Positions 1 through 63,966 of a stretch of DNA of 64,000 nt are shown one piece after another. This stretch comes from Tragulus kanchil (taxonomy: Eukaryota; Chordata; Mammalia; Artiodactyla; Tragulidae). The notes beneath the pieces are model-generated. The model saw nothing but the letters and a program-made list of their open reading frames with translations, searched no databases and was not told the origin of the DNA. How positions within the stretch are numbered: the stretch's first letter is position 1; each line of letters begins with the position of its first letter. Made by a program: the position numbers and the translations under genes. The stretch lies in assembly GCA_022376925.1 (NCBI GenBank), contig JAIOJX010000032.1:117529979-117593978 (forward strand), given 5' to 3'.

Positions 1-1222
1 AATGGCTTCAATTACCACTCAGACAGGAACGCTGGGCGGCTCACCCCCAGCCAGGGAGAAGCCCAAGTCTGGGCAGGATCCCTCTCTGGTGCCCCCTCCC
101 TCTGGCCTGGCTACAGAGGAACTCCTGAGACAGTTTCTCAGAGGCACTCAGAGCGGCTTAGCCTAGCCGCTCTGCTCCAACGTCTGTCTCTATCCAGCTG
201 TCCTGGCCGACCACCAGCCTCGAGCAGGGGTCCTGCGCGGCCCTGGAGGCAATGAGCCTGGCATCTCTGGCCTCCCATAGCACAGACTGACCACACACAC
301 TCGGCCCGGGCTGCTGGCTGCACACCCCTCCCCCTGCTGTACACAACAGCCCACAAGGTACACACCACCTGCTGCTCAGTCCGCACTCCACACAAACACT
401 GTCTGATGCACACACAGCCCGATGTATACCACCTGCTGCATATACCACGCCCCATACACACGGCCTGATGCGCGTACGCACAAACGCGCGCGCACACACA
501 CACACACACAGAGTCAGATGCACAAGCCCTGCTTTCTGTACAGCCCATAAGACACCCAACCATCAGGGTGTCACACCACATCACACACCTCACACACACG
601 CCTTCCAGACAGCACGCAGGGCACTCACACCACACGCAGGGTGCGTGTCATCCGCTGTATCCATGACCACAGGCAAAGGCTGCTTCCTGCACTCTGAGTC
701 GTCAGAGCCAGACCCTCCAAGCAAAGTCAGAAATGGCTCATCCCTGCTCCTCGGCCTTCCTCCTCTTCCTCCCCCTCTCCTCTCTGCTCATCTTCCTCTT
801 CTAGGCACTTCCAGAACCTGCCCAAGTCACAGGGCCTGGCCCACACCTTTGCTGTCTGGCCTGCTCCGGGGCTTTCCTGACCACTGTACCTCCTGGCTGG
901 AATCCACTGGCCCAGGTGAATCCTGAACCCCTGACTGAGCTCCAAGACCCTCCTGGCTCCCCCACCTCCTGAAGGGAAAGGCCAGGAGGCAAGGCCTGCC
1001 TTGCTTCCCTCCTCCTTTGCTCCCCCTCCCTCGCCAGGGAAAATGTCAGATTCCCTGTCTCAGTGGCGGCGGCGGCAGGCGGGTTGGAGGGGGAGTGATT
1101 CAGCCTCAAGAGTGCGGAGTGAGAAGAGCTTTTCCTGCCATTACCCGGCGAGGGAGAGGCTGGCGCGCTAATGGCTTCAATTACCACTCAGACAGGAACG
1201 CTGGGCGGCTCACCCCCAGCCA
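1..1222. repeat. Partial direct-repeat pair cut by the window edge; AC-rich flank
   Basis: Bases 1-54 recur at 1170-1222 (offset 1169), then the two diverge, so the window opens at the end of the left copy of a ~1.17 kb tandem repeat whose right copy ends near 1222. The stretch also holds an AC-rich, microsatellite-like zone at about 285-640 with a pure (AC)n core near 491-510. I recognise no gene. The stretch probably lies in the PTPRF intron below the first Ig-domain exons. Confidence 0.7.
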
Positions 1223-3386
1223 GCTTGTGCTGGGCACCCCCACCCTGTACCAGGCCCGGGCCAAGGGGGCGGGGAAGCAGCCGGCTGGGCATCACAGGGC
1301 AGCGGGGACTCCCTGGGAGTGGCAGTCTTGCCCAGGGAGTTCGGTGCAAAGGCCGTGAAGTGGAGTGATGTGAGCGTGACAGGGGCTGGGCCTGGCCCAG
1401 AACAAGCAGGGCAGGGAGCCTGGTGTGGACACGCGATGCAGCAACCCCCTCAGCTGAGCCGAGTCACCCCAGCGAGCCCTGGGCCACTCCCCTGGGGTGC
1501 CCAGCGTGTGCCAACCTGGACGCCGTGCACGATGTGCTGCACGTAAGGAGCTCAGCCTTTATTCCCAGTCCCCCAACCAGCCTCATCCTCTCCCCAGCCC
1601 TCCTCCCAGGGATGGCACTGGCTCTCTTCTAGCCTCAGCCCACAGCTGTAGTCAGACCCCCCTTTCACCCCACTCCCACAAACACCCAGCCTCTCTGGCC
1701 AGCAGGGGGTCCTTGCACAGTGGGACAGGGCTGCTGTCCTCTGGCCCCGCCCCCTGGCACCTTTGAGACCTCCCACTCCACTCCTTGCTGCCAAGCCCAA
1801 AGCCAGCCAAGGTTACACAGACCAACATGTGAAGTCAGCATTTTATCTTCCGGGTGCTGGGTTTCAGGAGCAGGGTGGGGCTCACTCAGGCCCACAGCTC
1901 CATCCCAGGGCCATGCCTAGGCCCTTCACATGCTCCCCAACCTCCTCAGACATCACTCACACTCAAGCACAAAAATGCCCCCGACCCTTGCGAGAGAAAC
2001 CCTCATCCAAGAAGGCCCCTCCAGAACTGGGGAGAAGAGGATCTGGGGGGAACTTTTCTAAGGCTAATAAGGAGGCTCCCTTTCCTTTAATATGAAGGCT
2101 TGCGAGATGCCCTCTGGGGTAGGAGCCACCATCTGGCCCTTCAGCCCCCTCCCAAATGCCAGGGTCCTGCTGGGCAGCAAGCAACAGGAGGGAGGGCAGT
2201 GCTAAAATACCTGTCCTGAGGTCATGAGCGGGGACACTGAGGTCAGGAGTGGCAGGGAGGACCCTATCCTGGCCAAGGGCTGGTCCTCTGGCCATCCAAA
2301 GGGCTGCATTACAGCCAGCTTGTGCTGGGCACCCCCACCCTGTACCAGGCCCGGGCCAAGGGGGCGGGGAAGCAGCCGGCTGGGCATCACAGGGCAGCGG
2401 GGACTCCCTGGGAGTGGCAGTCTTGCCCAGGGAGTTCGGTGCAAAGGCCGTGAAGTGGAGTGATGTGAGCGTGACAGGGGCTGGGCCTGGCCCAGAACAA
2501 GCAGGGCAGGGAGCCTGGTGTGGACACGCGATGCAGCAACCCCCTCAGCTGAGCCGAGTCACCCCAGCGAGCCCTGGGCCACTCCCCTGGGGTGCCCAGC
2601 GTGTGCCAACCTGGACGCCGTGCACGATGTGCTGCACGTAAGGAGCTCAGCCTTTATTCCCAGTCCCCCAACCAGCCTCATCCTCTCCCCAGCCCTCCTC
2701 CCAGGGATGGCACTGGCTCTCTTCTAGCCTCAGCCCACAGCTGTAGTCAGACCCCCCTTTCACCCCACTCCCACAAACACCCAGCCTCTCTGGCCAGCAG
2801 GGGGTCCTTGCACAGTGGGACAGGGCTGCTGTCCTCTGGCCCCGCCCCCTGGCACCTTTGAGACCTCCCACTCCACTCCTTGCTGCCAAGCCCAAAGCCA
2901 GCCAAGGTTACACAGACCAACATGTGAAGTCAGCATTTTATCTTCCGGGTGCTGGGTTTCAGGAGCAGGGTGGGGCTCACTCAGGCCCACAGCTCCATCC
3001 CAGGGCCATGCCTAGGCCCTTCACATGCTCCCCAACCTCCTCAGACATCACTCACACTCAAGCACAAAAATGCCCCCGACCCTTGCGAGAGAAACCCTCA
3101 TCCAAGAAGGCCCCTCCAGAACTGGGGAGAAGAGGATCTGGGGGGAACTTTTCTAAGGCTAATAAGGAGGCTCCCTTTCCTTTAATATGAAGGCTTGCGA
3201 GATGCCCTCTGGGGTAGGAGCCACCATCTGGCCCTTCAGCCCCCTCCCAAATGCCAGGGTCCTGCTGGGCAGCAAGCAACAGGAGGGAGGGCAGTGCTAA
3301 AATACCTGTCCTGAGGTCATGAGCGGGGACACTGAGGTCAGGAGTGGCAGGGAGGACCCTATCCTGGCCAAGGGCTGGTCCTCTGG
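1217..3386. repeat. Tandem direct repeat pair, offset 1095 (likely assembly duplication)
   Basis: 1217-2291 and 2312-3386 are essentially identical at a constant offset of 1095. They are separated by a 20-base junction (2292-2311) that belongs to neither copy. With the pair ending at 1222 this brackets a piece (about 55-2311) made only of left overlap plus right overlap, which is what an untrimmed gap patch would give. No gene is visible inside; the paired open frames are copies of the same chance frames. Confidence 0.9.
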
Positions 3387-7899: not shown

Positions 7900-8245
7900 T
7901 ATTTTTTTTAATATATAATTTTACTTATTTATTTTTGGCTATGCGGGGTCTTCATGACTGTACAGGCTTGTCCCTAGTTGCAGAGAGCAGGGGCTAATTT
8001 CTATTCGCAATGCATGGGCTTCTCACTGTGGAGGCTTCTCTTGTGGAGTACAGGTTCTAGGGTGACTGGACTTCAGCAGTCGCAGCTCTTGGGCTCAGTA
8101 GTTGTGGCTTCCAGACTCTAGACCACAGGCTCAGTGGTTGTGGTGCACGGGCTTAGTTGCTCTGCCACATGTGGGATCTTCCTGGATGAGGGATCAAACC
8201 CATGTCTCCTGCACTGGCAGCTGGGTTCTTTACCACTGAGAGAGA
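7900..8245 (-). mobile_element. tRNA-derived ruminant SINE
   Basis: The reversed A-tail (poly-T and 'aatatataattttacttatt') starts near 7903. The body ends in the reversed B-box/A-box region ('ggatcaaacccatgtctcct', 'ggttctttaccactgag') near 8245. Its head end is repeated at about 9290-9389 because it falls in a tandem-duplicated segment. Confidence 0.75.
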
Positions 8246-10428
8246 AAGTGCTGGTCCAGTGGAGAGAAAAGGGACAGCAGATGGGGCAGTGTCTGAGGAG
8301 GGAAGGGTCTGGGGACCAACCACCAGGGTCAGGAGTGACAGCTGCAGTGCAGAGAGCCAGGGGTGCTCAGCCTTGTAGGGAGCAGCGAGGGGTCCATTTA
8401 CACAGCATCCCAGATTCCAGGGGACTCTGGAGGTTTTGTTTAATTGTTAAGAAAAGTCACCATCTCTGAGCCTCATCTGCTAAATGGTCTAGAGTCAGGG
8501 GTCTGTGCAGATAAAACGTGATGATGTCTGCAGGCTGCTTCCACAGGCTGGACGTGGGGGTAACCTTGCCTGTAGGTAGCTATCGCCCTCTAGGATCAAT
8601 AGTATTGTTGCTGTTCAGTCACTCAGTAATGTCGGACTCTTTGCAACCTCGTGGACTGCCCAACGCCAGGTTTCTCTCTCTTTCATCATCTCCCAGAGTT
8701 TGCTCAAACTCATGTCCATTGAGTGGGTGATGCCATCCAACCATCCTCTGTCGTCCCCTTCTCCTCCTGCCTTCAATCTTTCCCAGCATCAGAGTCCTTT
8801 CCAATGAGTCGGTTCTTCACATCAGGTGGCCAAAGAAATGGAGCTTCAGCTTCAGCATCAGTCCTTCCAATGAATATTCAGGGTTGGTTATTTTTTAGGA
8901 TTGACGGGTTTGACCTCCTTGCAGTTCAAGGGACTCTCAAGAGGCTTCTCCAAAATCACAGTTTGAAAGCATCAGTTCGTCAGTGCTCAGCCTGTTTTAT
9001 GGTCCAACTCTCACATTTGTACATGACTATTGGAAAAATCACAGCTTTAACTATACGGACCTTTGTCAGGAAGGTGATGATATCTCTGCTTTTTAATACA
9101 CTGTCTAGGTTTGCCATAGCTTTTCCTCCAAGGAGCAACCTCCTTTAATTTCGCGGCTGCAGTCCTGTCCATGGTGATTTCGGAGCCCAAGAAAATAAAG
9201 TCTGTCACTGTTTCCACTGATTACCCATCTATTTGCCATGAAGTGATAGGACCTGATGCCATGATCTTAATTTTTGAATGTTAAGGTGGCACGGGCTTAG
9301 TTGCTCTGCCACATGTGGGATCTTCCTGGATGAGGATCAAACCCATGTCTCCTGCACTGGCAGCTGGGTTCTTTACCACTGAGAGAGAAAGTGCTGGTCC
9401 AGTGGAGAGAAAAGGGACAGCAGATGGGGCAGTGTCTGAGGAGGGAAGGGTCTGGGGACCAACCACCAGGGTCAGGAGTGACAGCTGCAGTGCAGAGAGC
9501 CAGGGGTGCTCAGCCTTGTAGGGAGCAGCGAGGGGTCCATTTACACAGCATCCCAGATTCCAGGGGACTCTGGAGGTTTTGTTTAATTGTTAAGAAAAGT
9601 CACCATCTCTGAGCCTCATCTGCTAAATGGTCTAGAGTCAGGGGTCTGTGCAGATAAAACGTGATGATGTCTGCAGGCTGCTTCCACAGGCTGGACGTGG
9701 GGGTAACCTTGCCTGTAGGTAGCTATCGCCCTCTAGGATCAATAGTATTGTTGCTGTTCAGTCACTCAGTAATGTCGGACTCTTTGCAACCTCGTGGACT
9801 GCCCAACGCCAGGTTTCTCTCTCTTTCATCATCTCCCAGAGTTTGCTCAAACTCATGTCCATTGAGTGGGTGATGCCATCCAACCATCCTCTGTCGTCCC
9901 CTTCTCCTCCTGCCTTCAATCTTTCCCAGCATCAGAGTCCTTTCCAATGAGTCGGTTCTTCACATCAGGTGGCCAAAGAAATGGAGCTTCAGCTTCAGCA
10001 TCAGTCCTTCCAATGAATATTCAGGGTTGGTTATTTTTTAGGATTGACGGGTTTGACCTCCTTGCAGTTCAAGGGACTCTCAAGAGGCTTCTCCAAAATC
10101 ACAGTTTGAAAGCATCAGTTCGTCAGTGCTCAGCCTGTTTTATGGTCCAACTCTCACATTTGTACATGACTATTGGAAAAATCACAGCTTTAACTATACG
10201 GACCTTTGTCAGGAAGGTGATGATATCTCTGCTTTTTAATACACTGTCTAGGTTTGCCATAGCTTTTCCTCCAAGGAGCAACCTCCTTTAATTTCGCGGC
10301 TGCAGTCCTGTCCATGGTGATTTCGGAGCCCAAGAAAATAAAGTCTGTCACTGTTTCCACTGATTACCCATCTATTTGCCATGAAGTGATAGGACCTGAT
10401 GCCATGATCTTAATTTTTTGAATGTTAA
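8142..10428. repeat. Tandem direct repeat pair, offset 1143-1144 (likely assembly duplication)
   Basis: 8142-9284 and 9285-10428 are near-identical and directly abut. One homopolymer G is missing in the right copy near 9334 and one T is missing in the left copy near 9277. The left copy runs into the start of the right copy in mid-element, inside a BovB LINE, which no retrotransposition event would produce. Confidence 0.92.
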
Positions 10429-12185
10429 ATTTTAAGCCAGCTTTTTCATTCTTCTCTTTCACCTTCATCAAGAGGCTCTTTAATTCCTCTTTGCTTTCTA
10501 CCATTAGGGTGCTTTCATTTGCATATCTGAGGTTATTGATATTTCTCTCACAATCTTGATTCCAGCTTGTGCTTTACCCAGTCTGGCATTTCTCATGATA
10601 TAATCTGCAAATAAGTTAAAAAAGCAGGGTGACAATACACAGACTTGATGTACTCCTTTCCCAATTTGGAACCAGTCCATTGTTCCATGCCCGGTTCTAA
10701 CCGTTGCTTCTTGACCTGCATACAGATTTCTCAGGTGGCAGGTAAGGTGGTCTGGTATTCCCATCTCTTATGAATTTTCCAGGTTGTTGTGATTCAGACA
10801 GTTCAAGGCTTCAGCATAGTCAGTGAAGCAGCAGTAGATGTTTTTTGGAATTCTCTTGCTTTTTCTATGATCCAACAAATGTTGGCAACCTGATCTCTGG
10901 TTCCTCTGCCTTTTCTAAATCCATCTTGGACATCTGGAAGTTCTCTGTTCACATACTGTTGAAGTCCAGCTTGAAGGATTTTGAGCCTTAACTTGGTAGC
11001 ATGTGAAATGAGTGCAATTGTGCAGGAGTTTGAACATTCTTTGGCATTGCTCTTCTTTGGGACTGGAATGAAAACTATCATCCCCATTTTAGAGATGGGG
11101 AAATAGAGGCTCAGAAGGTTAAACAACAGTCAAATAGGTTGGTTATTTTTAGGATTGACGGGTTTGACTCCTTGCAGTTCAAGGGACTCTCAAGAGGCTT
11201 CTCCAAAATCACAGTTTGAAAGCATCAGTTCGTCAGTGCTCAGCCTGTTTTATGGTCCAACTCTCACATTTGTACATGACTATTGGAAAAATCACAGCTT
11301 TAACTATACGGACCTTTGTCAGGAAGGTGATGATATCTCTGCTTTTTAATACACTGTCTAGGTTTGCCATAGCTTTTCCTCCAAGGAGCAACCTCCTTTA
11401 ATTTCGCGGCTGCAGTCCTGTCCATGGTGATTTCGGAGCCCAAGAAAATAAAGTCTGTCACTGTTTCCACTGATTACCCATCTATTTGCCATGAAGTGAT
11501 AGGACCTGATGCCATGATCTTAATTTTTTGAATGTTAAATTTTAAGCCAGCTTTTTCATTCTTCTCTTTCACCTTCATCAAGAGGCTCTTTAATTCCTCT
11601 TTGCTTTCTACCATTAGGGTGCTTTCATTTGCATATCTGAGGTTATTGATATTTCTCTCACAATCTTGATTCCAGCTTGTGCTTTACCCAGTCTGGCATT
11701 TCTCATGATATAATCTGCAAATAAGTTAAAAAAGCAGGGTGACAATACACAGACTTGATGTACTCCTTTCCCAATTTGGAACCAGTCCATTGTTCCATGC
11801 CCGGTTCTAACCGTTGCTTCTTGACCTGCATACAGATTTCTCAGGTGGCAGGTAAGGTGGTCTGGTATTCCCATCTCTTATGAATTTTCCAGGTTGTTGT
11901 GATTCAGACAGTTCAAGGCTTCAGCATAGTCAGTGAAGCAGCAGTAGATGTTTTTTGGAATTCTCTTGCTTTTTCTATGATCCAACAAATGTTGGCAACC
12001 TGATCTCTGGTTCCTCTGCCTTTTCTAAATCCATCTTGGACATCTGGAAGTTCTCTGTTCACATACTGTTGAAGTCCAGCTTGAAGGATTTTGAGCCTTA
12101 ACTTGGTAGCATGTGAAATGAGTGCAATTGTGCAGGAGTTTGAACATTCTTTGGCATTGCTCTTCTTTGGGACTGGAATGAAAAC
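8605..12185 (-). mobile_element. BovB (RTE-type) LINE, 5'-truncated, decayed, with false internal duplications
   Basis: Reading 5' to 3' on the minus strand, the element enters near 12185 and ends near 8605 with the typical 3' BovB/Bov-A segment ('gcaaagagtccgacattac'). Translated minus-strand pieces match the BovB reverse transcriptase: ISHATKLRLKILQAGLQQ, VQDGFRKGRGTRDQVANIC and FQIGKGVHQVCVLSPCFFNL, and near the 3' end [10 protein letters not shown]. The pieces are split by frameshifts and stops. At 10514-10525 the frame reads NINNLRYANESTLM, so the catalytic YADD box has become YANE. The element cannot encode an active polymerase. Two overlapping tandem duplications inflate it: 8885-9284 appears three times and 10429-11135 twice. 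A MIR at about 12185-12290 abuts its 5' end. Confidence 0.9.
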
Positions 12186-12245
12186 TATCATCCCCATTTT
12201 AGAGATGGGGAAATAGAGGCTCAGAAGGTTAAACAACAGACAAAT
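10025..12245. repeat. Tandem direct repeat pair, offset 1110 (likely assembly duplication)
   Basis: 10025-11135 and 11138-12245 match almost perfectly. The left copy stops where 'caaat' is followed by the start of the right copy ('aggttggttattttt'). With the pair ending at 9284|9285 this defines a 1.85 kb patch (9285-11135) overlapping both neighbours. Confidence 0.92.
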
Positions 12246-14085: not shown

Positions 14086-16283
14086 CCACTCCACCCAGGC
14101 CCAGGGGCACCCCCTGTGCCCTTGCATGTGCCCAAGCCATTCTCGTGCACCCTGCTCTCAAGCCTGAGAGAGCCTGCTCTGCATCCCTCAGTCTGTGGGC
14201 CACCATCCCTGGTCAGGTCCCCAGGCAGGCGGGCAAGCTCAGGTGACTTGACCACTCTGCCCAGCACGGACCAGGTCTGGTGTTCAGTGAGGGTCTGAGA
14301 CCACATGGCTGCAGGGGCTTTTTGCCGCACCCGAATGCAGGGCCATCTCCCCTCCACGCCCACCCTCCCCCCACCACATGGAGGCTATGGGCTGCACAGG
14401 CCTTCGGGCAGCAGCTCCCAGAGGCATGCCCTGGACACTCTCAGGTAGGTGGGAGGGAGCGGCCTAAAAAAGGAAACAAGTGGGCTGGCCTGGGAGGCCC
14501 AACCCTACTCCCCAGGGAGAGGACTGCTATTTTGTACCTTCCCCGCAGCCCCTTGTAGGCAGGCACACAGACAGGCTGCAGCCAGGAGCTGGGAGGCAGG
14601 GAGGGAGGCGGGTTTCCCCGCCCTGAACAGCCTAATGAGCTGGGGACTCATTATTGCTGGCTCCTGTGACCACTTCTGGCCTCCCGTGAGGGGGGGAAGC
14701 CTGCTCAGAGACAACGCTGGGCTCCCAGGGGACACGCAGGGAGCCCCAGGTCATGGTCTGGGGTGGAAGGAGCACGTAATAAGTGTCAGGTGCCTTGAAT
14801 ATGTGCCCTCAGTTAACCTTTCCAGGTAGAAGTGACTATTCTCATTGCGCAATCAGAAAACAGGCCCTGAGAGGGAAAGTAACCTCCCGGAAGTTCCCTG
14901 GAGGGCAGAGTCTAGACAGGCCCCCACTCCAGCCTCCACAAGAATGAGGGGGGAGGCACTGCGGAACCATCTGCAGCCCCTGCCTGCCCTGTCCCAGCTC
15001 CACTGACCCAGTGGGGGCTGCAAGACCACAGACACCTCCCCAGTGACTTTGATCCTTGCCCCAGCTACCCACCCATCCTAGCCACCAGGCATCCTGCTCT
15101 GGGCTCCCGTGACTCCAAGTAACTGGACTGCTCTACGTTGTCTGGGCAAAGGCAGAAGGTCAAGTCCAGGCCTGTTCCTGCCCCGCCCACTCCACCCAGG
15201 CCCAGGGGCACCCCCTGTGCCCTTGCATGTGCCCAAGCCATTCTCGTGCACCCTGCTCTCAAGCCTGAGAGAGCCTGCTCTGCATCCCTCAGTCTGTGGG
15301 CCACCATCCCTGGTCAGGTCCCCAGGCAGGCGGGCAAGCTCAGGTGACTTGACCACTCTGCCCAGCACGGACCAGGTCTGGTGTTCAGTGAGGGTCTGAG
15401 ACCACATGGCTGCAGGGGCTTTTTGCCGCACCCGAATGCAGGGCCATCTCCCCTCCACGCCCACCCTCCCCCCACCACATGGAGGCTATGGGCTGCACAG
15501 GCCTTCGGGCAGCAGCTCCCAGAGGCATGCCCTGGACACTCTCAGGTAGGTGGGAGGGAGCGGCCTAAAAAAGGAAACAAGTGGGCTGGCCTGGGAGGCC
15601 CAACCCTACTCCCCAGGGAGAGGACTGCTATTTTGTACCTTCCCCGCAGCCCCTTGTAGGCAGGCACACAGACAGGCTGCAGCCAGGAGCTGGGAGGCAG
15701 GGAGGGAGGCGGGTTTCCCCGCCCTGAACAGCCTAATGAGCTGGGGACTCATTATTGCTGGCTCCTGTGACCACTTCTGGCCTCCCGTGAGGGGGGGAAG
15801 CCTGCTCAGAGACAACGCTGGGCTCCCAGGGGACACGCAGGGAGCCCCAGGTCATGGTCTGGGGTGGAAGGAGCACGTAATAAGTGTCAGGTGCCTTGAA
15901 TATGTGCCCTCAGTTAACCTTTCCAGGTAGAAGTGACTATTCTCATTGCGCAATCAGAAAACAGGCCCTGAGAGGGAAAGTAACCTCCCGGAAGTTCCCT
16001 GGAGGGCAGAGTCTAGACAGGCCCCCACTCCAGCCTCCACAAGAATGAGGGGGGAGGCACTGCGGAACCATCTGCAGCCCCTGCCTGCCCTGTCCCAGCT
16101 CCACTGACCCAGTGGGGGCTGCAAGACCACAGACACCTCCCCAGTGACTTTGATCCTTGCCCCAGCTACCCACCCATCCTAGCCACCAGGCATCCTGCTC
16201 TGGGCTCCCGTGACTCCAAGTAACTGGACTGCTCTACGTTGTCTGGGCAAAGGCAGAAGGTCAAGTCCAGGCCTGTTCCTGCC
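14086..16283. repeat. Tandem direct repeat pair, offset 1101 (likely assembly duplication)
   Basis: 14086-15182 and 15187-16283 are identical as far as I can read, with a 4-base junction. A MIR fragment (about 14775-14885) is inside and so appears again near 15876-15986. Confidence 0.92.
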
Positions 16284-25188: not shown

Positions 25189-25200
25189 AAACGTAGCCCA

Positions 25201-47992: not shown

Positions 47993-48030
<38 letters not shown>

Positions 48031-48465: not shown

Positions 48466-49056
48466 GCTTCCCAGGTGGCACTAGCGGTAAAGACCTGCCT
48501 GCTAATGCAGATGAAACAGACATGGGTTCAATCCCTAGGTAGGGAAGATTTCACTGGAGGAGGGCACCACTCCAGTATTTTTGCCTAGAGAAAGGCTGAG
48601 GTCTATTTCAGGCTGGTGCTGCTGTTGCAGATTGCAGCCGTTCATGCTGTGGGGCTCCCACTATTTGTCTCCCACCTTCAGGACCCCTCCCTCACCTCTG
48701 GCTATTTATGGGGGTCCCTCCCAAAGATCCTCAAAGTTGTAGCCCTTAGTCCTTAGTATTTGCAGTCACACACAGTCATTTTCCTGGGGGTGGGGGGTGC
48801 ATGCCAAAGTGGGATGGGGAACGGCTGTCCTCCTGGCCCCCTCTTCCCTGGGGGAGAAACCAACTCCCTAAGACACGGTGGTGTCCTTCCTCTCAGCTTG
48901 TCAGAAAAAAACTCAGACGCCAGCACCGCCAAACTGTCTGTGTACCATCTCAGGTGTTGAGTGGGAGGAAAAAGGCTCTGGCCTTGGAACGCAAAAGCCT
49001 GGCTAATGCCTTTCACTCTTGCCTGGTGAGTCACTCTGCAGGGGGGTGGGGGGAGC

Positions 49057-49093
<37 letters not shown>

Positions 49094-49119
49094 TCAATAG
49101 AACACTCTGCTGATGACTT

Positions 49120-49157
<38 letters not shown>

Positions 49158-49591
49158 AGACAGAAGTTAATGTCTCAATAGAACACTCTGCTGATGACTT
49201 CTCCTCAAGCTCTGAGAAAATAGAGGTAACGAGGGAGGACATCCCACCCCCGACTATCAAGTCCATAAACCCACCCCATCTCTCCTTTCTCCCTCCCGAG
49301 GTGCCCCCCACAGTGGCAGGGGCTGACCCCCCTGTGGCCCCTTCACTGCATCAGTCCCATTGACTCTCCGTCATGCTCAAAGTCTCCCGCATCTTAAAAA
49401 CTCCCCTTCCTTGACCCCACTGGACCCGCCAGAGTGGGAGAGGCAGAGTGTTTCTCTGTTCTTCTTCATGGCAAACCCAAGAGCTGTTCACACAGGGAGC
49501 CTCCAGTCTCCCGTCTCCTGTGCACGCTCAGCCCACTGTGATGTGCTTTTCGGGACCAGCACTCTGCTGAAATTGCTCTTGACATGACTAT

Positions 49592-49815
49592 TGGGCTTCC
49601 CAGGTGGCACTAGCGGTAAAGACCTGCCTGCTAATGCAGATGAAACAGACATGGGTTCAATCCCTAGGTAGGGAAGATTTCACTGGAGGAGGGCACGGCA
49701 ACCCACTCCAGTATTTTTGCCTAGAGAATCCATGGACAGAGGAGCCTAGGAGGCTATGGTCCATAGTGTCACAAATAGTTGGATACGACTGAAGTGATTT
49801 AGCACACATGCATGA
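49592..49815 (+). mobile_element. Bov-A/Bov-tA SINE
   Basis: 'gggcttcccaggtggcacta', 'gcctgctaatgcagatgaaa', 'ggttcaatccctaggtaggg', 'ccactccagtatttttgcct' and 'ttggatacgactgaagtgat'. A truncated copy is at 48471-48586 and a full copy at 50694-50917, both from the tandem duplications. Confidence 0.85.
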
Positions 49816-50693
49816 TGACTATTCTTCTGCCTTTTGCTCGATCCAATGGCCATGCCTGTTTGCAGCTTAGTGGACTTCTCAGTGGCCCTTTCCACTTCCT
49901 GCCGTCCACCTGGATCCCTTCAGTGCCAGCACACACAGACTGGATCTGACCTTCTCGTCATCTCCCCGTCTGCAGGCTGTTGGGCCCCCGTTCTTATCCT
50001 CACACATGGGGCCTCCTCTCATTCCTCACCGTACCTCTGCTGCTCCCACCTCACTCAGGGGAGCTGGAGATGAGATCACTGTCGACTCTCCTCAGACCTC
50101 TCCACTGTGGACCCGGGTTCTAATGCATCTGCTCTCTCCTGCCTTCACTTTTTCTTCTTGTCCCGCCTGGGTGCCAAGGCCTAACGTTTTAATTACACTC
50201 TTGTCAATCCCCCAAGCCCCTTGGCCTCTCTGCCTTTTGATGGTATCTGTCTGGCAAAGCCCCAGCTCCGGATGCGCCCTCCTGTCTGCCTTCCTGTGCT
50301 GTGCTCAAGCAGCCAAGTTGCTCCACAGGTCAGAGTGATGTTCCCATAAATCATAGCCGCTGACGGCACGTGGGCCCTCGACACCTTTCTCCTGGCAGCT
50401 TGGAATCTCCCTCTCTGAAATGGCTATTTTCAACCTTCGCCATTCTCTTTAAGCCTCGGACCAGCCCATTTCCTCCTTGCTGGCAGATGTGACCTGGCCT
50501 GCTCCTTTATAGGATTAAAGTCACAGACAGGATCCACCCTTAACTAGTTTCCTACTAGCCTAGTCTCCCTTCACCTGCCCCCTCTCCTGCTGCTTCAGAG
50601 TAAACCCTCCTCCCGTCTCCTGTGCACGCTCAGCCCACTGTGATGTGCTTTTCGGGACCAGCACTCTGCTGAAATTGCTCTTGACATGACTAC

Positions 50694-50917
50694 TGGGCTT
50701 CCCAGGTGGCACTAGCGGTAAAGACCTGCCTGCTAATGCAGATGAAACAGACATGGGTTCAATCCCTAGGTAGGGAAGATTTCACTGGAGGAGGGCACGG
50801 CAACCCACTCCAGTATTTTTGCCTAGAGAATCCATGGACAGAGGAGCCTAGGAGGCTATGGTCCATAGTGTCACAAATAGTTGGATACGACTGAAGTGAT
50901 TTAGCACACATGCATGA
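50694..50917 (+). mobile_element. Bov-A/Bov-tA SINE, copy from the tandem duplication
   Basis: Identical to 49592-49815 at offset 1102. Confidence 0.85.
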
Positions 50918-51336
50918 TGACTATTCTTCTGCCTTTTGCTCGATCCAATGGCCATGCCTGTTTGCAGCTTAGTGGACTTCTCAGTGGCCCTTTCCACTTC
51001 CTGCCGTCCACCTGGATCCCTTCAGTGCCAGCACACACAGACTGGATCTGACCTTCTCGTCATCTCCCCGTCTGCAGGCTGTTGGGCCCCCGTTCTTATC
51101 CTCACACATGGGGCCTCCTCTCATTCCTCACCGTACCTCTGCTGCTCCCACCTCACTCAGGGGAGCTGGAGATGAGATCACTGTCGACTCTCCTCAGACC
51201 TCTCCACTGTGGACCCGGGTTCTAATGCATCTGCTCTCTCCTGCCTTCACTTTTTCTTCTTGTCCCGCCTGGGTGCCAAGGCCTAACGTTTTAATTACAC
51301 TCTTGTCAATCCCCCAAGCCCCTTGGCCTCTCTGCC

Positions 51337-53470
51337 TTTTGATGGTATCTGTCTGGCAAAGCCCCAGCTCCGGATGCGCCCTCCTGTCTGCCTTCCTGTG
51401 CTGTGCTCAAGCAGCCAAGTTGCTCCACAGGTCAGAGTGATGTTCCCATAAATCATAGCCGCTGACGGCACGTGGGCCCTCGACACCTTTCTCCTGGCAG
51501 CTTGGAATCTCCCTCTCTGAAATGGCTATTTTCAACCTTCGCCATTCTCTTTAAGCCTCGGACCAGCCCATTTCCTCCTTGCTGGCAGATGTGACCTGGC
51601 CTGCTCCTTTATAGGATTAAAGTCACAGACAGGATCCACCCTTAACTAGTTTCCTACTAGCCTAGTCTCCCTTCACCTGCCCCCTCTCCTGCTGCTTCAG
51701 AGGAAACCCCTCCTCCCATCTCAGGCCAGGGCTTGATGCCCAAGCCCTCCTGCTCTATCTGCTACCCCCTCCCTCTCTCAGCTCTCTATCCACCCACCAC
51801 CACCACTACCTGGATCCTTTCCACCCACCTGGCCCTACAACCTTAACCCTGGCTCCCTTCCCATCCTTGCCCATTGAGCATTCCTATATGCCCCACCATT
51901 TGGTCAAATATTGCTTTCACCTCCCCCAGCTCCCCAGAGCATAATGTTTGAACTAGATGGGCATTCCCCCCGACCCCCAGCATTCATCTCAGTAGTCCCC
52001 TTGATTACTAAACTCCTAAAACGTTAGCTTTTTTGACTCCCTCGACATCGTACTCTGCTGGTTTGTCTCTCAGCTCCTTGGTCTGCTTCTCGGCCTTCTT
52101 GGCAGGGTCACCCTCCTCCCCTAAAGGCTCTTGTTCCTCAAGCTCTTTCCTAAGCCTTTCTCCCTCTCACTGTGGACCCTCCCTGGTGATCTCATCCATG
52201 CTACAGCTTCGATTACCATTCATCTGGCTGATGATTCACACCTTTATGTATCCAGCCTGGAGAACTTCCTGTCATAAGCTCTGGACCAGGAGGAGCCTAG
52301 CCAACAGCCTCATCGTCTCCACTTCCATCTCTCAGAGGACCTCGACTCCGACATGTCTGAGACCGAACATGTGGTTCTTACTCTCTTGGGGTCTCTGCAT
52401 CCCAAGCTCCGTTTTGATGGTATCTGTCTGGCAAAGCCCCAGCTCCGGATGCGCTCCTGTCTGCCTTCCTGTGCTGTGCTCAAGCAGCCAAGTTGCTCCA
52501 CAGGTCAGAGTGATGTTCCCATAAATCATAGCCGCTGACGGCACGTGGGCCCTCGACACCTTTCTCCTGGCAGCTTGGAATCTCCCTCTCTGAAATGGCT
52601 ATTTTCAACCTTCGCCATTCTCTTTAAGCCTCGGACCAGCCCATTTCCTCCTTGCTGGCAGATGTGACCTGGCCTGCTCCTTTATAGGATTAAAGTCACA
52701 GACAGGATCCACCCTTAACTAGTTTCCTACTAGCCTAGTCTCCCTTCACCTGCCCCCTCTCCTGCTGCTTCAGAGGAAACCCCTCCTCCCATCTCAGGCC
52801 AGGGCTTGATGCCCAAGCCCTCCTGCTCTATCTGCTACCCCCTCCCTCTCTCAGCTCTCTATCCACCCACCACCACCACTACCTGGATCCTTTCCACCCA
52901 CCTGGCCCTACAACCTTAACCCTGGCTCCCTTCCCATCCTTGCCCATTGAGCATTCCTATATGCCCCACCATTTGGTCAAATATTGCTTTCACCTCCCCC
53001 AGCTCCCCAGAGCATAATGTTTGAACTAGATGGGCATTCCCCCGACCCCCAGCATTCATCTCAGTAGTCCCCTTGATTACTAAACTCCTAAAACGTTAGC
53101 TTTTTTGACTCCCTCGACATCGTACTCTGCTGGTTTGTCTCTCAGCTCCTTGGTCTGCTTCTCGGCCTTCTTGGCAGGGTCACCCTCCTCCCCTAAAGGC
53201 TCTTGTTCCTCAAGCTCTTTCCTAAGCCTTTCTCCCTCTCACTGTGGACCCTCCCTGGTGATCTCATCCATGCTACAGCTTCGATTACCATTCATCTGGC
53301 TGATGATTCACACCTTTATGTATCCAACCTGGAGAACTTCCTGTCATAAGCTCTGGACCAGGAGGAGCCTAGCCAACAGCCTCATCGTCTCCACTTCCAT
53401 CTCTCAGAGGACCTCGACTCCGACATGTCTGAGACCGAACATGTGGTTCTTACTCTCTTGGGGGTCTCTG
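51337..53470. repeat. Tandem direct repeat pair, offset 1073-1075 (likely assembly duplication)
   Basis: 51337-52397 matches 52412-53470 apart from small indels ('gatgcgccctcctg' against 'gatgcgctcctg') and a g/a change near 52257/53326. The 14-base junction is in neither copy. Confidence 0.92.
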
Positions 53471-54281: not shown

Positions 54282-56648
54282 GTTTTGTCCATGTATAATT
54301 ATGCATACATATATCTCTGGGCCCCTCACCTAGTGTGCAAGGTGAGTGGAGTCCATGGGTTGGCAAGGGCGGGGGTGTTCCAGGCCACATCGGTATTGGG
54401 ATTTCTAAGTGTAGTGGGGGCTTCTGGCCAAGGCTTTGGATCTGCATGGGTGTATATCACAGACACCTCCAGGTTTCCAAAGTTCCCCAAAGCCGCCAGT
54501 GCCACCAGATGCCCCAGGCTGAACTGGCTCTGCTCCGGACAGACCAGTGCAAGGGCAGGCCGGCCTTTGGAGACATACAGACCTGGTCTGAATTATGCCT
54601 GTGGCACTTACTAGGCCTGATCTTGGACAAATGACTAGCCATCTGATCTTAGACAAATTCCTTCTCTTGTCTAAGCCTCACTTTTTTCTTCTGTAAAAAG
54701 GGGATACGGCCTATTTTGCAGCATTGTATAAATGACAAAATTGTGTTTGTAAAGAGCTTCGTCTGAGCTTCACATCACAGGTTCTTGAAAATAGAAGCTA
54801 CTTGATGATTATTAGACTTAGCATAATCAAGCCTCTAAGAGCATTGGTTTGGAGGACCATTTGGAAGCTAATCCCACTGGGTCCCCTATCCCAGTAATCC
54901 TCAGCTACTGTCTGAATGAGAGCCAGCTTCATCATCCATCAGGCTCCTTTTGCACTTCCTCTCTCCTGATCCGACCTCCCACTGCTGCCTTCCCCTGCAG
55001 CCCTCTGGACACCCTCAGCCTCTTCAGAAGTCCTTCTTCCGATTCCTGCCGCACTGAGGACTTGGCAACCGTCTCCAGGGAAGCTGCCATTCTCCACAAG
55101 TGCAGACTAAGGAGGCAGGGGGAAAAATCTTCCCCCTCACGAAAGCCACTCCCAAATCATTATTCCTTCAGCCTCATGAAAAAAATTCCAGCTCATTTAA
55201 GACTCATGCCATCTGGCTCTTGAAGTTCATCTATTCAACCAAGATTTATTGAGTGCTTTTTCCTCTTTCTCTACTATACCTTCTTTCTTAAAAGGCTTAG
55301 GTGATATTAAAAACATGTATGGGACTTCCCTGGTGGTCCAGTGGCTAAGAATTCACCTGCCAGTGCAGGGTACTCTGGTTCAATCCCTGGTCTGGGAAGA
55401 TCCCACATACTGAGGAACAACTAGGCCTGTGTACCACAATCCCTGCAGCTACTGAAGCCTGCGAAGCAGTTTTGTCCATGTATAATTATGCATACATATC
55501 GGTACCTAGTGTGCAAGGTGAGTGGAGTCCATGGGTTGGCAAGCGGGGTGTTCCAGGCCACATCGGTATTGGGATTTCTAAGTGTAGTGGGGCTTCTGGC
55601 CAAGGCTTTGGATCTGCATGGGTGTATATCACAGACACCTCCAGGTTTCCAAAGTTCCCCAAAGCCGCCAGTGCCACCAGATGCCCCAGGCTGAACTGGC
55701 TCTGCTCCGGACAGACCAGTGCAAGGGCAGGCCGGCCTTTGGAGACATACAGACCTGGTCTGAATTATGCCTGTGGCACTTACTAGGCCTGATCTTGGAC
55801 AAATGACTAGCCATCTGATCTTAGACAAATTCCTTCTCTTGTCTAAGCCTCACTTTTTTCTTCTGTAAAAAGGGGATACGGCCTATTTTGCAGCATTGTA
55901 TAAATGACAAAATTGTGTTTGTAAAGAGCTTCGTCTGAGCTTCACATCACAGGTTCTTGAAAATAGAAGCTACTTGATGATTATTAGACTTAGCATAATC
56001 AAGCCTCTAAGAGCATTGGTTTGGAGGACCATTTGGAAGCTAATCCCACTGGGTCCCCTATCCCAGTAATCCTCAGCTACTGTCTGAATGAGAGCCAGCT
56101 TCATCATCCATCAGGCTCCTTTTGCACTTCCTCTCTCCTGATCCGACCTCCCACTGCTGCCTTCCCCTGCAGCCCTCTGGACACCCTCAGCCTCTTCAGA
56201 AGTCCTTCTTCCGATTCCTGCCGCACTGAGGACTTGGCAACCGTCTCCAGGGAAGCTGCCATTCTCCACAAGTGCAGACTAAGGAGGCAGGGGAAGAATC
56301 TTCCCGCTCACGAAAGCCACTCCCAAATCATTATTCCTTCAGCCTCATGAAAAAAATTCCAGCTCATTTAAGACTCATGCCATCTGGCTCTTGAAGTTCA
56401 TCTATTCAACCAAGATTTATTGAGTGCTTTTTCCTCTTTCTCTACTATACCTTCTTTCTTAAAAGGCTTAGGTGATATTAAAAACATGTATGGGACTTCC
56501 CTGGTGGTCCAGTGGCTAAGAATTCACCTGCCAGTGCAGGGTACTCTGGTTCAATCCCTGGTCTGGGAAGATCCCACATACTGAGGAACAACTAGGCCTG
56601 TGTACCACAACTACTGAGCCCACAAGCTGCAGCTACTGAAGCCTGCGA
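54282..56648. repeat. Tandem direct repeat pair, offset 1172-1187 (likely assembly duplication)
   Basis: 54282-55468 matches 55469-56648. The right copy lacks several short stretches near its start ('tatctctgggcccctcacct' becomes 'tatcggtacct'). The left copy lacks about 20 bases of the SINE near 55438. Indels at both ends fit poor contig-end consensus. Confidence 0.9.
54600..54795 (-). mobile_element. MIR-like SINE, antisense
   Basis: 'gtctaagcctcacttttttc', 'ttctgtaaaaaggggatacg' and 'ttgtgtttgtaaagagcttc' is the usual antisense MIR order. The copy at about 55772-55967 comes from the tandem duplication. Confidence 0.65.
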
Positions 56649-56818: not shown

Positions 56819-57087
56819 CCATATAAGATGTTTGGTACATAGTAGGAGTCTCTTTATATTCATGAATAAATGAACATATTTAAAAATGTACATAGATGTT
56901 TTCCTCTCCCCAGACCCCCCTTTAGAGGTTTCATCTAACATAAACAGAGGAGCAGAAGTTTCAGTCTTAGGTCTCTCTTGTGCTGTTTGGTTAGAAGCTG
57001 GTGCACCACTTTAAATGTTCTTCTAAGCTCTGTAGGTGATCACATCTCTTAAGCTGGTCACCACGTGGTGCTTGGGATATAGATTAC
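56819..57087. other. Upstream flank
   Basis: AT-rich unique DNA, nothing recognised. Confidence 0.35.
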
Positions 57088-57114
57088 TGAAGAAAACTTC
57101 GCTTCCTCCCCTTG

Positions 57115-57285
57115 AAAATGAAAGTTACTCAGTAATGTCCGACGCCTTGCAATCCATGGCCGAGCCATGGAATTCTCCAGGCAAGAATACTAGAGTGAGT
57201 AGCCTTTATTTTCTCCAGGGGATCTATCCAACCTAGGGACGCAACGTAGGTCTCCCACATTGCGGTGGGAAGTGGTCTTTCACCA
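57115..57285 (-). mobile_element. Bov-A SINE fragment
   Basis: 'aaagttactcagtaatgtcc', 'attctccaggcaagaatact' and 'tctccaggggatctatccaa' is Bov-A in reverse. Repeated at about 58218-58375. Confidence 0.75.
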
Positions 57286-57299
57286 CGGCACCTTTTTCT

Positions 57300-58190
57300 T
57301 CTTCCCAAGACCATCATATGAGGCTGGGCTGCCATATGTGACTTGCCTTAATGCAGGAAAGGACAGCTTAGAAGAGGAACTAAAATGCAGAAAAAGAAAA
57401 GTTACAGCTGGGTAATACCTGGAACTTTCCCTGAGACTGGAGAGATAAGTACCTCAAGAAGCAGATGCTAACGTCACTCCCCTGTCCTCCTTTATACATG
57501 TTTTCTCTGGACTGCATCCTTCATCACTTCCTCCTTGTAACACAGAAAATCCCTTCCTTCCCCACCAGGATGGGGGTTCTTACTCCCTGGATCCCTTCCC
57601 TTCCCCCACTCTGTTTCCCAAAAGGACTTATGCATCGTGTTTGCAGGCATCACCAAGCTGATCAGTAATGCCTGAATTAACACTCCTCCCAAAGATGATT
57701 CTTGTAGGGAACGTGCTGGCATTCTACTTCCCATTTTTCAAGGTGGGTTTCTTTTCTTCAAAGGCTCTCTTTTCAACATTCCATATCCATACTAGTTTCC
57801 TTAAATACTGAAGTTGCTAAACAAATACATTCATACTCATAGCTCAAAGACTGCTTCTTAGGCCTAGTACATGTTAAAGCCATATTGAGAAAGGAAATAA
57901 ATTCCTTAACTGCCTCATAATTAGCATCGTGTCTTCCCTTTTCCCTGGGAATCAGTAAATCCAATTATTGTGGCAAGGGTAGAATGTCTGTTCCCTTCCT
58001 GATCCCCTTTGGGATTTGTTTGAATAAGAATATGGTCCTAGTCCCTTTAATGACTTCTCAGTGATTTTCACAAGAGAGTATTTGATGGCTTGATTTTAGG
58101 ACGCCTCAATTACATTTGCCAAGAGCTAATATCAATTTGGGGAAAGAGAAGGGGTTGGCCTATTCTCCCAGTTAAATAAAATGGAAAAGA
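57300..58190. other. Upstream flank, no gene recognised
   Basis: AT-richer unique DNA (and its copy at about 58390-59290). The 80-codon minus-strand frame at 57492-57734 and the 63-codon frame at 57773-57964 show no domain I know. Confidence 0.35.
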
Positions 58191-59856
58191 CCTGAAGAAA
58201 ACTTGCCTCCCTTGAAAATGAAAGTTACTCAGTAATGTCCAGCTTGCAATCCATGGCCGAGCCATGGAATTCTCCAGGCAAGAATACTAGAGTGAGTAGC
58301 CTTTATTTTCTCCAGGATCTATCCAACCTAGGGACGCAACGTAGGTCTCCCACATTGCGGTGGGAAGTGGTCTTTCACCACGGCACCTTTTTCTTCTTCC
58401 CAAGACCATCATATGAGGCTGGGCTGCCATATGTGACTTGCCTTAATGCAGGAAAGGACAGCTTAGAAGAGGAACTAAAATGCAGAAAAAGAAAAGTTAC
58501 AGCTGGGTAATACCTGGAACTTTCCCTGAGACTGGAGAGATAAGTACCTCAAGAAGCAGATGCTAACGTCACTCCCCTGTCCTCCTTTATACATGTTTTC
58601 TCTGGACTGCATCCTTCATCACTTCCTCCTTGTAACACAGAAAATCCCTTCCTTCCCCACCAGGATGGGGGTTCTTACTCCCTGGATCCCTTCCCTTCCC
58701 CCACTCTGTTTCCCAAAAGGACTTATGCATCGTGTTTGCAGGCATCACCAAGCTGATCAGTAATGCCTGAATTAACACTCCTCCCAAAGATGATTCTTGT
58801 AGGGAACGTGCTGGCATTCTACTTCCCATTTTTCAAGGTGGGTTTCTTTTCTTCAAAGGCTCTCTTTTCAACATTCCATATCCATACTAGTTTCCTTAAA
58901 TACTGAAGTTGCTAAACAAATACATTCATACTCATAGCTCAAAGACTGCTTCTTAGGCCTAGTACATGTTAAAGCCATATTGAGAAAGGAAATAAATTCC
59001 TTAACTGCCTCATAATTAGCATCGTGTCTTCCCTTTTCCCTGGGAATCAGTAAATCCGATTATTGTGGCAAGGGTAGAATGTCTGTTCCCTTCCTGATCC
59101 CCTTTGGGATTTGTTTGAATAAGAATATGGTCCTAGTCCCTTTAATGACTTCTCAGTGATTTTCACAAGAGAGAATTTGATGGCTTGATTTTAGGACGCC
59201 CTCAATTACATTTTTGCCAAGAGCTAATATCAATTTGGGGAAAGAGAAGGGGGTTGGCCTATTCTCCCAGTTAAATAAAATGGAAAAGACCTGAAAAAAA
59301 AAAAAAAGGACAGTAATTAAGACAGTGTGATATTGGCATAAGGACAGACCTACAAATCAATGAAACAGACTTGTGAGAGTCCAGAAATAAACCCATACAC
59401 GTATAGTCAATTGATTTTGACAAAGGTGCCAAGGCAATTGCATGGGGAAAGGATTGTCTTTTCAAACAATGGTTCCGGGACAACATGCAAAAATATTAAT
59501 TTATACTCTTATCTCATACCATAGTCAAAAACTAACTCAAAATGGGTCATAGACTTAAATCTAAGAGCTAAAAATATAAAACTTCTGGAAGAAAACATAG
59601 GAGTAAATCTTTAGGACCTTGGGATAGGAAGAGTTTTTAGATATGACACTAAAAGCACAAACAATGTAAGAAAAACTAATAAATAGTGCTTCACAAAAAT
59701 GAAAAACTTTTCATTCAAAAAGTGAAAACAAGTCACAGACTAGGAGAAAATATTTGTAAATCTTATGCTTGATAGAAGGATTTGTAGCTAGACTATATAA
59801 AGAACTTTTACAACTCAAAAAGAAGAAGACCAATGACTCAATTTAAAAATAGGTAG

Positions 59857-60284: not shown

Positions 60285-60842
60285 TGGCGAAGAATTGAAT
60301 AGACATTTCATCAAAGAAGGTAGATGAATGACCAAGAACCACATTAAAAGATGCTCATCATTAGTCGTTAGGGAAAGGTAAATTAAAAGCACAGTGAGAT
60401 ACCACTGCACATCAGCTGCGATGGCTATCATCAAAAACACAGGCAGTAACACGTGCTGTTGAGGATATGGAGAAACAAGTTTTCATACATTACTTGTGGG
60501 CATGTGAAATGCTGCAGCACTTGGGAGAACAGTTTGAGATTCTTAACACAAATTTACCACGTAACCCAGCAATTTCACTTCTGGGTATCTGCCCAAGAGA
60601 AATGAAAACATATGTCCACAGAACTTCTCTGTGAAAGTTCATAGCAGCCATATTCACAATAACCAAAAAGTAGGAACAACCCAAATGTTTTTCAACTGGT
60701 GAATGGATAAACAAAATGTGGCCTATCTGTACAGTAGAGTACTATTTGGCAATAAAAAGGAATAAAGTACTAATAGCTTCTACAGATGAACTTCAAAAAC
60801 TTCATGCTCAGTGAAAGAAGCCAAATACAAAAGATCATGTAT

Positions 60843-61214
60843 TAGCCTCCCCTGGTAGCTCAGTGGTGAAGAGTTCGCCTGCCAATGCAGGAGACACGAG
60901 CTCGATCCCTGATCCGGGAAGATCCCACATACTGTGGAGCAACTAAGCCTATGGGTCACAACTATTGACCCTGTGCTCTAGAGTCTTGGAGCTGCAAATA
61001 TTGAGTCCATGTACTGCAACTACTGAAGCCTGTGTGCCCTAGAGCCCGAGTTTCACAACAAGAGAAGTCACCACAACAAGAAGCCTGCTCACCTCAGCTA
61101 GAGAGTAGCCCGCACTCCCTGCAACTAGAGAAGAGCCTGTGGCAGCAGTGAAAACCCAGAATAGCCAAAAATAAATAAATAGATAAAAATGCATTTCTTT
61201 ATTAAAAAAAAAAA
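60843..61214 (+). mobile_element. tRNA-derived ruminant SINE inserted in L1
   Basis: 'agcctcccctggtagctcag', 'gctcgatccctgatccggga', and the A-tail 'attaaaaaaaaaaaa'. The L1 target is duplicated on either side as 'gatcatgtatt' (60836) and 'gtcacgtatt' (61215), differing as a CpG that decayed on one side. Copied at about 61962-62333 by the tandem duplication. Confidence 0.85.
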
Positions 61215-61480
61215 AGTCACGTATTGAATGATTCCATACATATACAAAGTCCAGAAAAAGCAAATCTACCAAAACAGACAGTAGGTTAGTGGTTGCTAGT
61301 GGGAATGTGGAGTGGCTAGAAATGATCACAAGGATTCTTCCTGAAGTGATGGAAATGTTTTGTGGTGATAGTTACACAATTCTGTAAATTTACTAAGAAT
61401 CACACACACTCAGTGCCGAAAAATTACAACTGGGTAATAAGTAGGGATGTGAGTGGAAATTTTATTTTAAAAACTAGGAG

Positions 61481-61888
61481 CTGTTTTAACATAGATATAT
61501 TTTGACTTTCGAAATGTGGAGTGGTGGGATAAACTGGGGCCCCCAGGGTCACACTCCCTTGGGGAACAACAATTGGTTAGGTTAGATGAACAGCTAACGA
61601 CTGGGCTTCTGTTTTACAAAGCACCCTGTGACTGGCTTCTCTTTGCTGAGTGGTCTTTTCCGGCTGGCCGGATTTTGATCACAGAGCCAGGAATGGGGTA
61701 GGGCCAGGCTGGCAAGGGGAGGCTGAAATGTGGATGGATTGGGGGAGAGGAGGTGAGTATGAGTTCTGTGACGAGGAGAGACACTTTTATAAGGACCTAG
61801 GGGGTTCTGCTGTGCAGAGGTTCACACCTTTCTCATCCAGTGCTCCCAGAAGCTTTTGGTCTCATGGGTTTTATTTAGGGGATTTTAA
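61481..61888. other. Upstream flank, unique DNA (copied at 62600-63008)
   Basis: Contains G-rich runs and no recognised repeat. The minus- and plus-strand frames here are chance. Confidence 0.35.
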
Positions 61889-63008
61889 GCTAATGCTTCT
61901 ACAGATGAACTTCAAAAACTTCATGCTCAGTGAAAGAAGCCAAATACAAAAGATCATGTATTAGCCTCCCCTGGTAGCTCAGTGGTGAAGAGTTCGCCTG
62001 CCAATGCAGGAGACACGAGCTCGATCCCTGATCCGGGAAGATCCCACATACTGTGGAGCAACTAAGCCTATGGGTCACAACTATTGACCCTGTGCTCTAG
62101 AGTCTTGGAGCTGCAAATATTGAGTCCATGTACTGCAACTACTGAAGCCTGTGTGCCCTAGAGCCCGAGTTTCACAACAAGAGAAGTCACCACAACAAGA
62201 AGCCTGCTCACCTCAGCTAGAGAGTAGCCCGCACTCCCTGCAACTAGAGAAGAGCCTGTGGCAGCAGTGAAAACCCAGAATAGCCAAAAATAAATAAATA
62301 GATAAAAATGCATTTCTTTATTAAAAAAAAAAAAGTCACGTATTGAATGATTCCATACATATACAAAGTCCAGAAAAAGCAAATCTACCAAAACAGACAG
62401 TAGGTTAGTGGTTGCTAGTGGGAATGTGGAGTGGCTAGAAATGATCACAAGGATTCTTCCTGAAGTGATGGAAATGTTTTGTGGTGATAGTTACACAATT
62501 CTGTAAATTTACTAAGAATCACACACACTCAGTGCCGAAAAATTACAACTGGGTAATAAGTAGGGATGTGAGTGGAAATTTTATTTTAAAAACTAGGAGC
62601 TGTTTTAACATAGATATATTTTGACTTTCGAAATGTGGAGTGGTGGGATAAACTGGGGCCCCCAGGGTCACACTCCCTTGGGGAACAACAATTGGTTAGG
62701 TTAGATGAACAGCTAACGACTGGGCTTCTGTTTTACAAAGCACCCTGTGACTGGCTTCTCTTTGCTGAGTGGTCTTTTCCGGCTGGCCGGATTTTGATAC
62801 ACAGAGCCAGGAATGGGGTAGGGCCAGGCTGGCAAGGGGAGGCTGAAATGTGGATGGATTGGGGGAGAGGAGGTGAGTATGAGTTCTGTGACGAGGAGAG
62901 ACACTTTTATAAGGACCTAGGGGGTTCTGCTGTGCAGAGGTTCACACCTTTCTCATCCAGTGCTCCCAGAAGCTTTTGGTCTCATGGGTTTTATTTAGGG
63001 GGATTTTA

Positions 63009-63966
63009 TGATGTGCAGAGACCAACTTCCTGTCCCGCAGAGGGTGGCGGAAGCAGTGGCTCTGGGAGATCTAGTTACATAGGGATTAAAGCTGAATCTT
63101 GCCTGGGAATTTTTTTAACCTGATGGGTGGTGCTTACTTGTATCTTGGATTAAATCATTCTTAAACTCCAGAGTCCAATCTCACTCTGACTGCCATGCTT
63201 GCAGATTTATAGCACAAAGAAATGAAGACTGATCAGGTCTGAACTGTAATGAAGTTCGGAATCCCATCTCAAAGTTAGAGGGAAATTATAGAGACCATTC
63301 TGAGATAGAAATGACAATGGTGGTGGCACAAGGTCCCCTCTGGGCCCATATCTGCCTTCCTGAAGCATGAGATACACAAAGGCCAGAGTGACCAAAAGGC
63401 CACGTGGTCATGTGACTCCTGACCAAAGAGGCAAGAGCTCTTTGTGCATAAACAACATGCAGGTTGCAATGGCGGTAGGAAGAGTCTGTCTTTTTTGATA
63501 TTCTCCCAACCAACAGCCCTGATCTTCATCTCCACCCCTCTGCATCTGGAGGTAAACCAGATGGAACTGAACAACTGAGAGCTTAAACAAGAGCTCAAGG
63601 AGGTAGCTCCTGTAGGATGGAAGGAAAGACCAGACACAAACAGGTGAAGCTGGAGATGAAAGCGAGAGGGTTCAGGAGAGGGTCTTGTTCCTCCCAGTGG
63701 CCAAGGGAGGTGGTTTTGGGTGCACTGAGAACCTGTGTGAAAAGGCCCTTGCTGACTGTGGTGCTGGGAGAGTCCAGCCATTCTTGAAAGTTCTCTGGAT
63801 ATACTCTGTATAGATTGGAAGACAAACTCAAGTCAAAAGTCAACAATGGCCTGGGGGTGGAATCGGGGCAGGGATGGGATATACATAGGACTAGTCTGGG
63901 ATTATACATATCTGTAAACAACAGAACTCTGTAAAAGCAAAAAAAAAAAAAAAAAGTCAACAATGG
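63009..63966. other. Upstream flank, no gene recognised
   Basis: Unique DNA. The 168-codon minus-strand frame at 63275-63781 has no recognisable domain. An A16 run at 63939-63955 marks a repeat end, with 'aagtcaacaatgg' at 63836-63848 and again at 63954-63966 just before a SINE head. Confidence 0.35.

Follow-up and report, generated by a model that had tools for sequence, protein, structure and literature searches.

The window analysed here is a stretch of 64,000 nucleotides from the Tragulus kanchil genome assembly GCA_022376925.1 (contig JAIOJX010000032.1, positions 117,529,979 to 117,593,978 of the forward strand). It includes a CpG island and a long series of direct repeats of about 1.1 kb, the two copies of each lying side by side. 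These repeats, the differences between their copies and their probable origin are the subject of this work.

Abutting direct repeats and the pieces they delimit

Self-BLAST identified 19 complete abutting direct pairs together with a twentieth which is cut by the start of the window (Table 1). An initial annotation, made from the letters alone, had described about twenty such repeats with a nearly constant length of ~1.05-1.19 kb, and the measurements bear this out. The overlap is 1047-1176 bp across the 19 pairs (mean 1107, standard deviation 34) and the period 1075-1187. The joins were located where the annotation had placed them, apart from some where short matches leave the position uncertain by as much as ~26 bp (17048-17074, 48579-48592, 58191-58201). 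Identity between the copies of the complete pairs, as given by BLAST, is 97.5-100%, and the aligned copies are identical in 3 of the 19. Summing the first copies of these pairs gives 21.1 kb of redundant sequence, or 33% of the window, in keeping with the 21-22 kb of false sequence which the annotation had estimated. The cut pair contributes just 54 bases.

A sensitive same-strand search, with thresholds of at least 80 bp and at least 90% identity (older, more divergent repeats would fall below these), returned 27 rows: the 19 first-order pairs and eight second-order matches, each linking pieces i and i+2 at a distance of 2.18-2.31 kb. No other direct repeat was found in the window on the same strand at these thresholds, and chance repetition was rejected on this ground. 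Short tandem arrays are also present (20 rows). Self-BLAST revealed no third full tandem copy at any pair, the partial third copies being due to chaining only, and there are no Ns among the 64,000 bases. No motif was seen in the 12 bp on each side of the 20 joins, which were compared by eye with no statistic.

As the annotation had proposed, a CpG island is among the repeated sequences; the annotation had also named putative SINE and BovB elements among them. The island is the only one recognised in the window by the 500-bp formula (38101-42200), and parts of it occur two or three times through pairs 11 and 12, so that a promoter here would appear more than once. Rfam gave 0 matches in the window at gathering scores, and Pfam 0 matches for the five open frames sent, of 114 listed.

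If the joins are taken as piece boundaries, complete pairs bound 18 pieces of 1788-9235 bp, with a join every ~3.3 kb on average. In eight of the 18 the two overlaps together exceed the length of the piece, which means that the flanking pieces, i-1 and i+1, also overlap. It is at these eight sites that the second-order matches, of 136 to 424 bp, occur, and a chain of tiles accounts for them with no extra assumptions. The shortest piece measures 1788 bp or ~1.6 overlaps; the lack of anything smaller, a point in favour of fixed nodes (see below), has a probability of ~0.004 under an exponential distribution with no minimum and a mean taken from the same data.

Table 1. Positions of the direct-repeat pairs in the window
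Pair	Copy 1	Copy 2	Span	Strand	Remarks
1	 	 	1..1223	+	Cut by window start; join 54/55; visible 54 bp match 1170-1223 exactly
2	1217-2291	2312-3386	1217..3386	+	Identical copies; scrap 2292-2311 partly matches sequence past copy 2
3	8142-9284	9285-10428	8142..10428	+	 
4	10025-11135	11136-12245	10025..12245	+	Chained to pair 3; second-order match 8882-9284 / 11137-11538
5	14086-15182	15187-16283	14086..16283	+	Identical copies
6	15985-17048	17072-18134	15985..18159	+	Untrimmed ends 17074, 18159; scrap 17049-17071; chained to pair 5
7	25188-26306	26307-27424	25188..27424	+	9 clustered mismatches, 0 indels
8	27067-28113	28152-29198	27067..29198	+	Identical copies; 38-bp scrap 28114-28151; chained to pair 7
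9	32081-33178	33185-34275	32081..34282	+	Untrimmed ends 33185, 34282
10	34545-35653	35655-36766	34545..36766	+	 
11	37957-39047	39069-40163	37957..40163	+	Within CpG island; end-zone indels 13 of expected polarity, 1 against
12	40021-41196	41197-42350	40021..42350	+	Chained to pair 11; CpG-island sequence repeated again
13	41928-43081	43088-44240	41928..44240	+	Chained to pair 12
14	45528-46623	46639-47732	45528..47732	+	 
15	47461-48579	48580-49728	47461..49728	+	Untrimmed end 48592; chained to pair 14
16	49508-50600	50610-51703	49508..51722	+	Untrimmed ends 50619, 51722; chained to pair 15
17	51337-52397	52412-53470	51337..53470	+	Chained to pair 16
18	54282-55439	55469-56610	54282..56610	+	Scrap 55440-55468 nearly matches sequence past copy 2, bases skipped before scrap
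19	57087-58191	58192-59291	57087..59300	+	Untrimmed ends 58201, 59300
20	60770-61887	61890-63008	60770..63008	+	 

Differences between the copies and scraps at the joins

The copies of each of the 19 complete pairs were aligned end to end and, for every insertion or deletion (indel), the copy without the bases was scored. The main count used untrimmed BLAST coordinates, and three indels at most 5 bp from an alignment end were dropped. The right-hand piece begins with the first 200 bp of a pair, and 37 of the 39 indels there leave the second copy short; the left-hand piece ends with the last 200 bp, where 20 of 25 indels leave the first copy short. With no indels dropped the same scoring gives 37/41 and 20/26, and with hand-trimmed ends 37/39 and 17/19. 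These indels are not independent, since two pairs in the GC-rich island supply 24 of the 58 found in the end zones (hand-trimmed count), and it is for this reason that the count per pair matters. Among the 19 pairs, 13 agree with piece-end polarity, none opposes it, two tie and four carry no end-zone indel in the untrimmed alignments. With hand-trimmed ends, 13 agree, none opposes and six are neutral. Three scoring schemes, with and without dropping, give 13-14 agreeing pairs and no opposing pair. In the hand-trimmed count 44 of 66 indels lengthen a run of one base. The interiors, more than 200 columns from both ends, are nearly clean: their 13,498 columns hold 8 indels together with 16 mismatches, nine of which form one cluster in one pair.

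The differences are dominated by indels and directed towards the ends, with the exception of the pair carrying nine substitutions. The polarity of the indels reflects degraded ends of separately built consensus pieces, as thin support at such ends would produce, and is the strongest new evidence supporting an assembly artefact. It also has a practical use: a second copy short at its start and a first copy short at its end can flag seams from the sequence alone, without marked gaps or reads.

The exceptional pair (pair 7) differs at nine positions within 78 bp (25608-25685 versus 26726-26803) and nowhere else, a G or C in copy 1 standing opposite an A or T in copy 2 each time. The cluster may reflect mis-polishing with reads that belong elsewhere, or an allelic difference.

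Eleven joins hold 4-38 bp which lie outside both aligned copies. The seven scraps of at least 14 bp were compared with the sequence beyond copy 2 and with that before copy 1, using 300 random stretches of the window as a control. Four (2292-2311, 17049-17071, 39048-39068 and 55440-55468) match the sequence beyond copy 2, where at most 9 of the 300 controls do as well; the weakest of the four is 17049-17071. The longest stretch among the remaining three, 28114-28151, lies at the join between the otherwise identical copies of pair 8, and no clear source was found for its 38 bp.

Origin of the repeats

The most likely account is that the window consists of at least 21 consensus pieces, built separately and meeting at 20 joins; neighbours would share ~1.1 kb and would have been concatenated in a chain without their common ends being aligned and collapsed. 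The near-constant length (1107 +/- 34 bp) over unrelated content, a CpG island included, leads to the view that the duplication is false, and polarity and chaining suggest that the two copies of each pair derive from one locus. The artefact is seen in the tiling geometry, in the loss of bases, of the correct polarity to the left and to the right of the joins, and in the garbled continuation scraps at some joins. The initial annotation had likewise supposed pieces joined with their ~1.1 kb overlaps kept, and this fits the constant length, the unrelated content, the chained triples, the directional decay of the ends and the scraps. The repeats are almost certainly false, an assembly artefact of untrimmed overlaps (a gap-patch version of it, discussed below, included), and about a third of the window is very probably artefact sequence. 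Some of the scraps weigh on the other side: 39048-39068 also beats all 300 controls before copy 1, so that it may derive from either side, and no clear source was found near either copy for three of the seven (28114-28151, 46624-46638 and 52398-52411).

Copies which are abutting, direct and of high identity might also be young tandem duplications present in the animal, of ~1.1 kb each. This would imply twenty events giving almost the same length each time, with identities of 97.5-100% in the 19 complete pairs, no third full copy and no join motif apparent by eye, and it would leave the chained overlaps and the indels pointing to piece ends to be explained. Natural duplications should vary in length and age and diverge by substitution; here there is nearly one length, and the differences are mostly indels. 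We give this origin practically no credence. A heterotype false duplication, in which both parental alleles are placed in a haploid assembly, is highly improbable. The pair at 25188-27424, with its 9 substitutions in 78 bp and 0 indels, could be allelic, but three of the 19 pairs show no difference at all over their aligned copies, interiors outside the pair 7 cluster show 7 mismatches in ~13.5 kb, and divergence between alleles leaves both the near-constant length and the directional loss at the ends without explanation. The constancy of length, the identity and the polarity of the errors led to the rejection of natural tandem duplication and of allelic duplication alike. Some polishers which work in chunks use fixed overlaps of about 1 kb, and such an overlap, left untrimmed after chunked polishing or in a tiling-amplicon consensus, would give repeats of this size. 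The chunks would be expected to have a constant length, in contrast to pieces which range from 1788 to 9235 bp, and this origin is very unlikely.

The measurements uphold the untrimmed overlap itself and speak in part for each of its two versions put forward in the annotation, contigs or gap patches. In one, the pieces would be layout units of a long-read assembler of the wtdbg/wtdbg2 type, neighbouring units sharing one fixed-length graph node which the consensus step failed to merge; we judge this to have about an even chance of being correct. In wtdbg2, the program of Ruan and Li (2020), neighbouring layout units reportedly share one node of fixed length (default 1024 bp), edges are said to vary in length with a minimum, nodes may by the same account overlap slightly (nominally 256), and the consensus program is reportedly meant to merge units over the common node. 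The near-fixed overlap seen here resembles the fixed-length common node, and variable pieces with a minimum of 1788 bp would correspond to about two nodes less the small overlap said to be allowed. Several points count against this version. The mean overlap of 1107 bp is 8% above the reported nominal 1024. No 256-bp periodicity was detected in the 18 piece lengths (R = 0.03 at 256, 0.13 at 276), although this is a weak failure, as read-to-read jitter could hide it. Random placement with a minimum spacing of 768 bp preserves the minimum but gives an expected 2.8 of 18 pieces below 2130 bp, versus 8 seen, and none of the chains simulated in this way shows the observed alternation of short and long pieces. 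Placement without a minimum raises the short pieces to a sufficient number (6.9), yet the observed minimum is never reproduced. Two further differences from the program as reported are that units i and i+2 overlap here by up to 424 bp, above the nominal 256, and that overlaps which it should merge are kept.

The alternation itself, along 55-61888, is left unexplained by a simple node model. Short and long pieces alternate at 16 of 17 possible turning points (permutation p 0.005), and the lag-1 autocorrelation of piece length is -0.52 (permutation p 0.004). Such a pattern would follow if longer contigs alternated with short gap patches carrying ~1.1 kb of untrimmed flank on each side. The short class of 1.79-2.72 kb, obtained with one phase slip allowed and after exclusion of a single unit (2128 bp) from the 19, would then imply gaps of about -426 to +509 bp. 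Six of the nine implied gaps are negative, however, and the alternation, which was tested only after it had been spotted, is found mostly in the first half of the window and is weak in units 10-19 (autocorrelation -0.10). Decay of the ends is also similar in the two classes, with 24 deletions at 19 short-piece ends and 29 at 18 long-piece ends (the last right-hand end, whose piece passes the window edge, was excluded), and because their ends are similarly degraded, short and long pieces look like the same material. The gap-patch version seems less likely, though a serious candidate, and we lean towards one kind of unit.

In published assemblies of this type node length is a parameter set by the user, 1536 or more in both examples found, and consensus is described as a separate step after layout (PMC8434745 and another paper; for general background see also PMC7483855). 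A yak assembly was built from Nanopore reads with wtdbg2, and the parameters given for it include no node-length option (PMC9448747); it is a lead only, with no tie to the window.

It is also conceivable, but rather doubtful, that the failure is systematic across the whole assembly and that every layout seam keeps its overlap of ~1.1 kb. The genome record would then be tens of percent too long and would include many false duplications of exons and promoters, all of one diagnostic length. Should the same occur elsewhere in the assembly, errors would follow in gene models, copy-number calls, repeat counts and genome size.

Relationship to known false duplications

False duplications are a recognised class of assembly error. 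The detection and correction of false segmental duplications resulting from mis-assembly, in that case mainly of divergent chromosomes, have been addressed earlier (PMC2864568). Ko et al. 2022 (PMC9516828) quantified false duplications together with the spurious gene gains which result from them, and ascribed the homotype class to sequencing errors and under-collapsing. The criteria given there are read depth, k-mers, gaps and linked reads, whereas the present case was judged from the sequence and from the absence of gaps only. No paper describing this exact artefact was recognised among the matches listed in the literature, which is weak evidence of absence.

The closest relatives are the homotype false duplications of the Vertebrate Genomes Project (VGP). 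These are of two types, in the first of which overlapping sequence at contig boundaries is scaffolded into a tandem duplicate with a gap (PMC8081667). Like these, the pairs of the window hold two tandem versions of what is probably one locus, the overlapping ends of neighbouring pieces having been left uncollapsed, and their copies (19 pairs and one cut pair) lie side by side at piece boundaries. In both cases it is consensus quality, not haplotype variants, which tells the copies from allelic ones; apart from one pair, the differences found here look like consensus errors. In contrast to the VGP cases, there is no gap between the copies, a gap being taken as a usual accompaniment and not a requirement, and the overlaps are of ~1.1 kb throughout, chained and dense. 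The kind of error is already known, and the window belongs near the first VGP homotype type, from which it differs in having no gaps, almost a single overlap length, and seams which are chained and densely spaced.

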